Below are positions 13,029 to 15,576 of a stretch of 46,830 nucleotides of DNA, piece by piece (the first letter of the stretch is position 1; each line of letters begins with the position of its first letter). This stretch comes from Comamonadaceae bacterium (GTDB taxonomy: Bacteria > Pseudomonadota > Gammaproteobacteria > Burkholderiales > Burkholderiaceae_C). The translations under genes and the position numbers were made by a program. The DNA is taken from contig CANGDZ010000021.1 in the NCBI GenBank assembly GCA_947452785.1, positions 1 to 46,830 on the forward strand. The letters are read 5' to 3'. The notes beneath the pieces were generated by a model. That model was not told the origin of the DNA, made no database searches, and saw only the letters and a program-made list of their open reading frames with translations.

Positions 13029-14231
13029 TCAGGGGTGCTTCAACCGCTGAATCACGCCAATCAGTGCTCGCAGCCCAATCACCTGCACGCCGTCCCCTAC
13101 CGGGTAAGTCTCTGCCCCCGGATACACCAGCCAACGCTTGACGGGCTGCAAATCTTCACACGCACTGTAAAAGCCCCGGCGGGGTTTGCTGGCAGCACCC
13201 CGTTTGATCTCCATGGCCCACAAGCCATGCCCAGGTATATCGAGCAGCAAATCCACCTCGGCCCCATTGCTGGTGCGGTAAAAGCCGCGGCTCGTGTTGA
13301 GTGGCGCGGCGTTGATCAAGGTCTCCAACGCAAAGCCCTCCCAACTGTTGCCCACCACCGGATGCGACAACAGTGCGTCATGCGTGCCGATGCCCAGCAG
13401 CGCATGCACCAACCCGCTGTCACGCACATACACCTTGGGCGACTTCACGAGACGTTTGCCCGTATTGCTGTGCCAGGGCTGCACACGGCGCAACAACATC
13501 AAATCCACCAGCATGTCCAGATAGCGGTGCACCGTCTTAGCGTCCAGCATCAGGTTCTTGCCCAGCTGCGACACATCCAGCAAGCCGCCTTGCTGGTGCG
13601 CCAGCATGGTCCACATACGACGCAAAGTTTCTGCCGGAATCCGCGTGCCGAAACTGGGGATGTCACGCTCCAGATAAGTCTTGATCAGGTTCTGCCGCCA
13701 CATCAGGCTCTTGGCAAGGCTCGAAGCCAAAAAACTGTCGGGAAACCCGCCACGCAGCCACAAGGCGTCTTGCTGATCCGCCCCCACTTCCAGGACCTGA
13801 AGCGGGGGTAACTCCAGATAAGCCGCCCGACCAGCCAGGCTTTCACTCGATTGGCGCAGCAGTTCACCCGTGGCCGAGCCCAACAACAAAAACCGCCCCA
13901 CGCCCAACCCCTGCCTACGGCCTTGATCAATCAAACCCCTCAACACTTGAAACAGTGCAGGCATTTGCTGCACCTCATCCAAGATCACCAGCTTGTCGGC
14001 GTGTTGCGCCAGATAAGCCCCGGGATCGGTCAACTTTTGCCGATCGCTAGGACTCTCCAAATCAAGGTAAATACTGCTGGACTGACGCCCGCCCAGCCCC
14101 TCTTTGAATGCGTGTTCGCCCACCCCAAGCGCCAATGTGGTTTTGCCCGCCTGACGCGGCCCCAATAAAGCAACCGCGGGTGAATCGGCCAACGCACCCA
14201 GTATTGAAGAGAACAAATGACGATCAATCAT
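13029..14231 (-). CDS. AAA_14/DUF4143 ATPase, copy 1
   Basis: The 400-residue protein has the two-part AAA_14 + DUF4143 layout: Walker A GPRQAGKTT with Lys30, Walker B LVILDE with Asp85-Glu86, sensor LLLGSATGELL, then a winged-helix segment (RRMWTMLAHQQGGLLDVSQLG, about 210-230), and a C-terminal PD-(D/E)xK-like part with NGAEVDLLL and WAMEIKRG. No signal peptide. Function of this widespread family is unknown; members are common in accessory regions. It starts at the edge of a 42-bp palindrome that recurs before the paralogue at 15575. The two copies flank tgt, point away from each other and share most of their sequence over the whole length. Confidence 0.88.
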   Translation of the reverse strand: MIDRHLFSSILGALADSPAVALLGPRQAGKTTLALGVGEHAFKEGLGGRQSSSIYLDLESPSDRQKLTDPGAYLAQHADKLVILDEVQQMPALFQVLRGLIDQGRRQGLGVGRFLLLGSATGELLRQSSESLAGRAAYLELPPLQVLEVGADQQDALWLRGGFPDSFLASSLAKSLMWRQNLIKTYLERDIPSFGTRIPAETLRRMWTMLAHQQGGLLDVSQLGKNLMLDAKTVHRYLDMLVDLMLLRRVQPWHSNTGKRLVKSPKVYVRDSGLVHALLGIGTHDALLSHPVVGNSWEGFALETLINAAPLNTSRGFYRTSNGAEVDLLLDIPGHGLWAMEIKRGAASKPRRGFYSACEDLQPVKRWLVYPGAETYPVGDGVQVIGLRALIGVIQRLKHP

Positions 14232-14271
14232 CCATGCATTATAAGGAATTTAATCCTGTAATTGCATGGAT
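14230..14271. promoter_or_regulatory. 42-bp interrupted palindrome abutting the start of ATPase copy 1
   Basis: Perfect outer arms ATCCATGCA (14230-14238) and TGCATGGAT (14263-14271) enclose inner arms AGGA (14244-14247) and TCCT (14254-14257) on exactly the same centre, 14250.5. Read on the minus strand the dyad ends in the first two bases of the ATPase start codon, so it could act as a DNA operator or as an RNA hairpin hiding the start. The same arrangement, with a compensated base change, precedes copy 2. Confidence 0.75.
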
Positions 14272-14330
14272 ATAGACTGTGAAGCATCTTAGGGCGACGT
14301 CTCTGCCCCGCCCCTCCTACAATCCTCCCC

Positions 14331-15527
14331 ATGCTCAAATTCGATCTGCTCGCCACCGACCCCTCCAGCCACGCCCGCCGCGGCACGCTGACCTTGAACC
14401 ATGGCGTGGTGCAAACGCCGATTTTCATGCCGGTGGGCACCTACGGCACGGTCAAGGGCGTGATGCCGCGCAGCCTGCACGAGATGGGCGCGCAGATCAT
14501 CTTGGGCAACACTTTTCACCTGTGGATGCGTCCGGGCCTGGACGTCATGCAAAGCTTTGGCGGCCTGCATCAGTTTGAGAAATGGGACAAACCGATCTTG
14601 ACCGACTCGGGGGGTTTCCAGGTCTGGTCGCTGGGCCAGATGCGCAAGATCACCGAAGAGGGCGTGACCTTTGCGTCGCCCGTCAACGGCGACAAGCTGT
14701 TCATGTCGCCCGAAGTGAGCATGCAGATTCAGACCATCTTGAACTCCGACATCGTGATGCAGCTCGATGAGTGCACGCCTTACGAGACCAAGGGCCACCT
14801 GACCACCGAAGCTGAAGCACGCAAGTCGATGGAGATGAGCCGCCGCTGGGCGGTGCGCAGCCGGGAAGAATTCACGCGACTGCAAAACCCCAACGCGCTG
14901 TTTGGCATTGTGCAAGGCGGCATGTTTGAAAACCTGCGCCAGGAGTCGCTCGACGCGCTGGTGGAGATGGACTTCCCCGGCTACGCCGTTGGCGGCGTGA
15001 GCGTGGGTGAGCCCAAAGAACAGATGCTGCAAATCATGGCGCACACGCCGCACCGCTTGCCGGCCCACAAGCCGCGCTACCTGATGGGCGTGGGCACGCC
15101 CGAAGACTTGGTGCAAGGCGTGGCCGATGGCGTGGACATGTTCGACTGCGTGATGCCCACCCGCAACGCCCGCAACGGCACGGTGTTCACCCGCTTTGGC
15201 GACTTGAAACTGCGCAACGCGCGTCACAAGAACGACCCGCAGCCGCTGGACACGACCTGCACCTGCTACGCCTGCGCGGGCAATCCTGTCGACGCGGCCT
15301 CCGGCTCCGGCGGTGTGTCTTGGGACCAGGGCGGACGGGGCGGGTTCAGCCGCGCCTACCTGCACCATCTGGACCGCTGCGGCGAAATGCTCGGCCCCAT
15401 GCTGACCACCATCCACAACCTGCACTACTACCTGAACCTGATGCGCGAAGTGCGCGAGTCGCTGGACGCGGGGCAGTTTGCGGCGTTCAGAGACCAGTTC
15501 AAGAGCGCGCGCGCACGCGGGGTTTGA
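14331..15527 (+). CDS. tgt: tRNA-guanine transglycosylase with a Gly-rich insertion in the zinc site
   Basis: Tgt exchanges guanine-34 of GU(N)-anticodon tRNAs for preQ1 in queuosine synthesis; QueA acts next. Of 398 residues, key parts are the general base Asp92 ([10 protein letters not shown]), [10 protein letters not shown], the nucleophile Asp272 ([13 protein letters not shown]) and the zinc ligands Cys310, Cys312, Cys315 and a His at about 345-346. Between Cys315 and FSRAYLHH is a 23-residue Gly/Ser-rich stretch (316-338) where E. coli Tgt has about three residues. The product is therefore longer than the usual ~375. All catalytic residues are kept, so it should be active. Confidence 0.94.
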
Positions 15528-15534
15528 GTCATTT

Positions 15535-15576
15535 ATCCTTGCAAATCATGGAATGAAACTCCATAATTGCAAGGAT
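15535..15576. promoter_or_regulatory. 42-bp interrupted palindrome abutting the start of ATPase copy 2
   Basis: Perfect 10-bp outer arms ATCCTTGCAA (15535-15544) and TTGCAAGGAT (15567-15576) enclose inner arms ATGGA (15548-15552) and TCCAT (15560-15564), whose centre is half a base off. The right arm ends in the first two bases of the ATPase ATG at 15575. Overall length (42 bp) and register to the start codon equal those of the dyad at 14230-14271. It follows the tgt stop by seven bases, so it might also work as a tgt transcript-end hairpin, though no T-run follows. Confidence 0.75.

Follow-up and report, generated by a model that had tools for sequence, protein, structure and literature searches.

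Two genes for DUF4143 ATPases that flank tgt in a Comamonadaceae bacterium, on a stretch of 46,830 nucleotides (contig CANGDZ010000021.1 of assembly GCA_947452785.1; hereafter the window), each begin at the edge of a 42-bp dyad. Each dyad is probably an operator through which the encoded ATPase would repress its own transcription from a leaderless promoter, a prediction drawn from comparative sequence analysis. An autorepressor operator is favoured because the dyad overlies the predicted promoter and covaries with residues predicted to read DNA, and repression, rather than activation, is suggested by the overlap between the dyad and the promoter motifs.

Two matched dyads in the window

Dyad A (14230-14271) marks the start of q2, an ATPase gene on the minus strand (13029..14231, ATG at 14231), and dyad B (15535-15576) that of q1, an ATPase gene on the plus strand (15575..16747, ATG at 15575); the dyads and their arms are given without strand. 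The original prediction had described two dyads of identical length and register, and both indeed measure 42 bp and end on the T of the ATG. The outer arms form 9/9 pairs in each; over all 21 pairs, counted ungapped, 15 are paired in A and 13 in B. The single difference reported between the outer arms, ATCC[A/T]TGCA, is present together with its compensating change in the opposite arm. The inner arms reported for both dyads are there as well, and these also differ with compensation: AGGA (14244-14247) and TCCT (14254-14257) in A, TGGA (15549-15552) and TCCA (15560-15563) in B. As the inner arms of B pair with an offset of half a base, B scores 11 in an 18-pair ungapped test with a threshold of 12, where A scores 12.

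The window holds three 42-mers with 9/9 outer pairs, namely A, B and a GC-rich one at 43989, against 0 or 1 in each of ten simulated windows, and the exact pattern ATCCNTGCA-N14..34-TGCANGGAT occurs at two places in the 3.5-Mb genome, A and B only. A scan of the same genome with the outer arms of B, allowing up to three mismatches, returned A, B and 16 other places, the best of these with 2 mismatches (reversed control: 5 places); we claim no further target among them. Whole-segment duplication, the origin that would have explained the likeness of A and B away, is ruled out: the two segments are 62% identical within the dyad, 54% in the first codons and 32% in the 100 bases upstream, so a recent copy that included the non-dyad flanks fails to account for it.

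Dyads at the starts of related genes

Relatives were gathered from samples of 299 family, 369 class and 60 genus genomes, with relatives in 71 of the 299 at E<=1e-40 and in 49 of the 369 at E<=1e-60, and from the best 80 of 560 confirmed loci in a GTDB species collection. Start codons were set by protein alignment, independently of the dyad. The 272 gene hits yielded 250 usable genes (12 were dropped for an unclear start, 5 as short, 3 at an edge and 2 for lack of a start), and 233 after removal of upstream redundancy. A start-dyad was defined as at least 12/18 ungapped pairs with a centre 15.5 to 22 bases before the ATG. At an earlier stage there had been 114 hits, and 83 were counted.

Of the 233 non-redundant ATPase genes of the DUF4143 family, 121 have a start-dyad, whereas 3 of 498 control open reading frame (ORF) starts from the loci of these genes and 14 of 2330 shuffles do, which excludes chance and supplies the same-register dyads in other homologues whose absence would have spoken against the original prediction. 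The commonest centre, -18.5, is shared by 79 of the 121, while the sequences are diverse (for instance CCTTGCA..TGCAAGG, TTGTACAA..TTGTACAA and TTTGCTATTTTAA..TTAAAATAGCAAA). Counting upstream dyads too, the totals rise to 147/233 genes and 13/498 controls. Several phyla contribute loci with dyad-bearing genes: the titles of the best 80 of 560 loci include Verrucomicrobia, Acidobacteria, Chlorobiaceae, Bacteroidetes such as Cellulophaga, and Actinobacteria. A wider-phylum set of 30 loci contributed 17 new genes, three with 18/18 pairs and 7/17 with TAnnnT at -12.

In the upstream-dyad class (loci L077, L075 and L074), dyads such as ACCATGAAATTCGAA..TTGGAATTTCATGGT stand some 10 to 20 bases further upstream. 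They are predicted operators in their turn, and would represent a second operator architecture in the family.

The symmetry itself is what has been kept. At centre -18.5, arm complementarity averaged 9.04/18 within a gene and 6.31 between genes in an earlier set (186 of 197 kept, 178 genes after redundancy removal), and 8.76 against 6.24 in the set of 233. Cross-gene pairing being lower than within-gene pairing, the match of left and right arms does not come from a shared consensus. All four Watson-Crick types occur at the inner pairs k3 to k5, and k4 is paired in 66% of comparisons within genes against 28% across them.

A predicted leaderless promoter beneath the dyad

Column statistics over the family, with positions counted from the A of the ATG, reveal TTGnAA at -35..-30 together with a -10 element at -12..-7, a spacing that is standard for sigma-70 promoters. 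TAnnnT stands at -12 in 66 of 233 genes, the median count for other offsets being 6, and its frequency is 30% in the 121 start-dyad genes, 31% in the 26 upstream-dyad genes and 3% in the 498 controls. Shine-Dalgarno motifs are scarce (2% of start-dyad genes, 4% of upstream-dyad genes, 16% of controls). In the window, dyad A contains a -10-like TATAAT (14238..14243, minus strand, -12..-7 from the A of the ATG) and a weak -35-like ATGCAAT (14261..14267, minus strand); dyad B contains a -10-like CATAAT (15562..15567, plus strand, -13..-8, one base further up than in A) preceded at 17 bp by a -35-like TTGCAA (15539..15544, plus strand).

Because these motifs place +1 at the ATG and Shine-Dalgarno motifs are scarce, the ATPase mRNA is probably leaderless, with the A of the ATG as +1; a -10 element about 6 nt before the ATG and few Shine-Dalgarno motifs are seen as a family excess over controls. 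The dyad thus overlaps the gene's own promoter, as predicted from these motifs. Its constant register to the ATG is best regarded as a promoter register, since the 26 upstream-dyad genes keep their -10 near -12 while the position of the dyad shifts. With a likely transcript start at the ATG, the dyad would be left out of the mRNA.

Dyad bases covary with protein residues

Both window proteins carry Pfam AAA_14 and DUF4143 and match the models of PDC-S01, a phage-defence candidate in PADLOC (best E 2.8e-84 and 1.7e-89). Walker motifs and an E..D..ExK motif are present, with retention among the 233 genes of 233/233 for K30, 232/233 for D75, 229/233 for E315, 231/233 for D317, 231/233 for E331 and 226/233 for K333. 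NCBIfam gave nothing for q1 and only sub-cut-off IstB helper matches for q2; a PDB sequence search found no relative (best E 0.52), and fold searches returned no solved DUF4143 structure among the matches listed. Fold matches to the archaeal AAA ATPases 2qen and 2fna do not extend across the C-terminal PD-(D/E)XK-like domain, and an operator goes unmentioned for them.

An AlphaFold2 model of q1 (pLDDT, the predicted local distance difference test, 93.8) places a recognition helix at residues 221-233 (16235..16273, plus strand) and a PD-(D/E)XK-like core at residues 283-360 (16421..16654, plus strand), which includes E315, D317, E331 and K333. In this model residue 222, a lysine (codon 16238-16240), is at the start, or tip, of the recognition helix, and residue 312, a glycine (codon 16508-16510, plus strand), is in a hairpin of the predicted PD-(D/E)XK-like domain, within its core.

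With protein identity controlled, inner-arm similarity among the 121 start-dyad genes tracks the protein most closely at residues 208-229 (partial r 0.23) and outer-arm similarity at residues 299-320 (peak 0.31). Coevolution was analysed on genes scoring at least 12 (121 of 233) or at least 11 (143 of 233), window site B, with its score of 11, belonging to the latter set only. Residue-by-residue mutual information over the 143 genes (effective number 54) ranked residue 222 with k4 first (z 11.0) and with k5 second (z 9.8), followed by 312 with k15 (z 7.2), 221 with k6 (6.1) and 220 with k4 (5.9), against a null maximum of z 5.75 in 100 within-clade permutations. Among 291 columns, residues 222, 220 and 226 are the top three for k4/k5, and residue 312 is the top for k15. 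In 70 disjoint nearest-neighbour pairs, k4 had changed in 15 of 17 where residue 222 had changed and in 6 of 53 where it was the same (p=8e-9). With the arms treated separately, residue 222 is associated with bases -24, -14, -13 and -25 (z 7.0, 6.5, 5.1 and 5.0), the first two alone exceeding a null maximum of 6.0 in 30 permutations.

The associations resemble a code. Lysine at 222 goes with CC (31/43), proline with TT (30/41), glutamine with GA (16/21) and threonine with CT (13/22), and these combinations recur in 3, 8, 4 and 4 of 24 protein clusters, respectively. Lys222 with CC (GG on the other strand) and Gln222 with GA are plausible as contact chemistry. The window proteins both have Lys at 222, and both sites have CC. 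At residue 312, asparagine goes with T at base -3 (8/11 in the 143 dyad genes, 15/25 in all 233), histidine with C (13/16 and 15/18) and alanine with A (50/65 and 62/90). The compensated outer-arm difference of the window dyads is precisely base -3 and its partner, the pair that covaries with residue 312: in A (14234 and 14267) the gene-sense base at -3 is T and q2 has Asn at the 312 column, while in B (15539 and 15572) base -3 is A and q1 has Gly312. The comparison of A with B is not an independent test of the association, since the 11 N312 genes include q2 and two relatives from the same genus. The inner arms of both dyads belong to the pairs that covary with recognition-helix residues, and the recognition part of the autoregulation through the winged helix put forward in the original prediction thus gains support from this covariation.

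Possible mobility and decay, and dyads without ATPase

The two ATPase genes enclose tgt (14331..15527, plus strand), for which a match was found in 58 genomes of the genus; 30 loci were looked at. These loci, the window included, carry a q1-like gene after tgt in 5 cases and a q2-like gene before it in 4. Nine of the 30 have FIST-side DNA directly after tgt and no dyad. What these empty sites lack is the stretch 15528..16733 (plus strand), that is, 7 nt, the dyad and most of the q1 ORF; since 16734-16747, with the last codons and the stop, is also present there, q1 borrows its stop codon from the flank. Two same-genus tgt loci, L199 (about 2700) and L218 (about 2680), have kept a dyad and an ATG and lost the ATPase ORF. 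A q1-like gene just after tgt is shared with other genera (L007, L008, L011, L016 and L116), so the position is recurrent or old. The genome of the window also holds a third DUF4143 fragment (G000:C23:190-474), with one internal stop and near a contig end.

Scanning the 299 family genomes for the exact outer arms CCTTGCA-N23/24-TGCAAGG gave 36 places in 33 genomes (reversed control: 2). A tblastn check of 30 of these, taking in up to 1.5 kb of flank, put 10 at an ATPase start and found no ATPase at 20; an eleventh ATPase-start site, in G020, was recognised by coordinates. The place in G106 is remnant-like, with a dyad followed by eleven codons that by eye resemble an ATPase start, beyond which tblastn finds nothing more. 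An exclusive link between dyad and ATPase is not upheld, as dyads without an ATPase exist; apart from the most symmetric of these, taken up below, the examined places are less symmetric. Highly symmetric dyads with these outer arms (15 to 18 pairs) and no ATPase nearby stand at L319:3001, L318:3001, L320:3001, L321:3001 and L317:1501; L318 and L319 share the flank ACGAGGGG, and the GC-rich dyad of L317 may be a terminator. Dyads of this kind are possibly remnants, or sites of another kind.

The family is found on 243 of 72,556 plasmid records at E<=1e-30, and five phage records have matches at E<=1e-10. In 19 genomes where DUF4143 matches were counted the maximum was 21; the genomes of L163, L187 and L175, of 2.0 to 4.9 Mb, have 18 to 21 each, fragments included.

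A probable autorepressor operator and its alternatives

A dimer of the ATPase might contact the inner arms with its two winged helices and the outer arms with its two PD-(D/E)XK-like domains. Covariation falls on bases near -35, -24, -14 and -3, which are 10 to 11 bp or one helical turn apart and would thus lie on one face of the DNA. So bound, the dimer would cover the -35, the -10 and the start site and exclude RNA polymerase, and either its ATP state or invader DNA could release it and free a nuclease-active form for defence. We consider a further elaboration as a tentative proposal, more doubtful than the operator itself: a two-part recognition code, with residue 222 of the winged helix-turn-helix (wHTH) reading the inner arm and the hairpin residue of the nuclease domain the outer arm, would make the operator readable from the protein and insulate paralogues from one another; with the nuclease domain seated on its own promoter, release driven by ATP or by an invader might at once derepress the gene and arm the nuclease, giving a one-gene, self-sensing defence switch.

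Several observations weigh against autorepression through these dyads. Eighty-six of the 233 genes fall below both dyad thresholds, and 9/17 of the new wider-phylum genes pass the dyad test. Five dyads of 15 to 18 pairs with the same outer arms have no ATPase nearby (in G262, G243, G029, the GC-rich G122, and G177, which has 18/18 pairs and was examined with 3-kb flanks). As for covariation, the pair test of 312 with k15 (p=1.6e-5) would fail correction over all residue-pair combinations, that of 226 with k3 is weak (p=0.089), and in all 233 genes, with no selection for dyads, residue 222 with base -14 ranks first at a z of 5.7 that is inside the null (maximum 7.3 of 30 permutations).

The alternative that fares best, though we judge it unlikely, is that the ATPase binds the dyad but activates the promoter, or parks there until titrated by invader DNA. 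The covariation data suit it equally, and it can draw on TT_RS11170, a gene on Thermus HB27 pTT27 with AAA_14, DUF4143 and HTH matches, which by eye has the same promoter layout (TTGTCT-17-TATCAT at -12) and a dyad TGAATGA-CTA-TCATTCA. Activation is harder to reconcile with a dyad that spans about -37 to +1, since binding there normally blocks polymerase. From its domains and place we equate TT_RS11170 with TT_P0211 of PMC4406477; in the accessible part of that paper, plasmid DNA brings a 6.6-fold increase in TT_P0211 RNA in a strain with Argonaute, yet the rise requires TtAgo and no regulator is named.

Slightly less plausible still is a role in mobility, in which the dyad would be a nuclease target, an attachment site or the end of an element and any regulation would be secondary. 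The presence or absence of dyad and ORF as a unit after tgt within one genus, the conserved PD-(D/E)XK motif and the dyads without ATPase all speak for it. Against it, the window gene has a single dyad, on its 5' side, with no 3' partner found; the nine empty tgt sites have no dyad; at L199 and L218 the lone dyad survives with its ATG and a few further bases, consistent with what a deletion would leave; and the register follows the promoter motifs, with the -10 fixed while the dyad moves in the 26 upstream-dyad genes.

The original prediction left a choice between an operator and a start-codon hairpin. The operator half stands, with dyads at one register and compensated divergence; the hairpin half, an RNA fold in a 5' leader that would hide the start codon and control translation, now appears distinctly improbable. 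A hairpin would explain why the dyad ends on the start codon and why its pairs covary, but RNA pairing tolerates G·U and not A·C, and G.T mismatches are no commoner than A.C: 90 against 104 over 114 sites (p 0.35) and 101 against 93 over 121 sites, equal within error in both. Without an excess of G·U over A·C, a wobble-tolerant mRNA stem is not what these counts describe, and the symmetry is most readily understood as a feature of the DNA duplex. Promoter geometry points the same way, as the -10 sits inside the right arm at -12 and the transcript would likely not contain the dyad, and arm bases covary with recognition-helix residues. Finally, that a different host regulator reads the dyad is very improbable: nothing specific favours it, and across several phyla the dyad, divergent in sequence, accompanies the gene and varies with residues of the protein that the gene encodes.

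Comparison with known systems

According to the accessible part of PMC12988326, PDC-S01 is an ATPase fused to a PD-(D/E)XK domain and ranks fourth in frequency among the defences of all prokaryotes; most PDC candidates of this sort still await validation. The terms promoter, operator, autoregul and palindrom are all absent from the text of PMC12988326; promoter and operator are absent from PMC13356809, where palindrom occurs only in CRISPR. The accessible part of PMC12733099, searched for PDC-S01 and palindrom only, mentions no regulation of PDC-S01, and that of PMC5217627, on spaced motifs, presents no such motif. In a literature search mostly outside subscription journals, with sources in part accessible, we found nothing published on the binding targets or the regulation of these ATPases. 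Should the operators be as predicted, each member of an uncharacterised family would come with a cognate DNA site and become testable with an oligonucleotide, the residue-base pairs naming the exact swaps to try; they also suggest how genomes with up to 21 DUF4143 matches may keep paralogues apart.

Two known arrangements come close to the one predicted here. In C-protein controlled restriction-modification, a co-encoded HTH protein binds the module's own promoter, and this C protein is a separate small regulator. AbiEi, the regulator of an autoregulated toxin-antitoxin operator, acts on inverted repeats, as described in the accessible part of PMC7319586. Like AbiEi-type operators, the predicted system would have inverted repeats at the promoter bound by a protein that the module encodes; unlike them, it would have no antitoxin, and the effector, an ATPase-nuclease encoded by a single gene, would itself act as regulator. 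With C-protein systems it would share the binding of its own promoter within a defence module; it would differ in that the wHTH lies inside the enzyme, and in that the nuclease-fold domain also covaries with the site.

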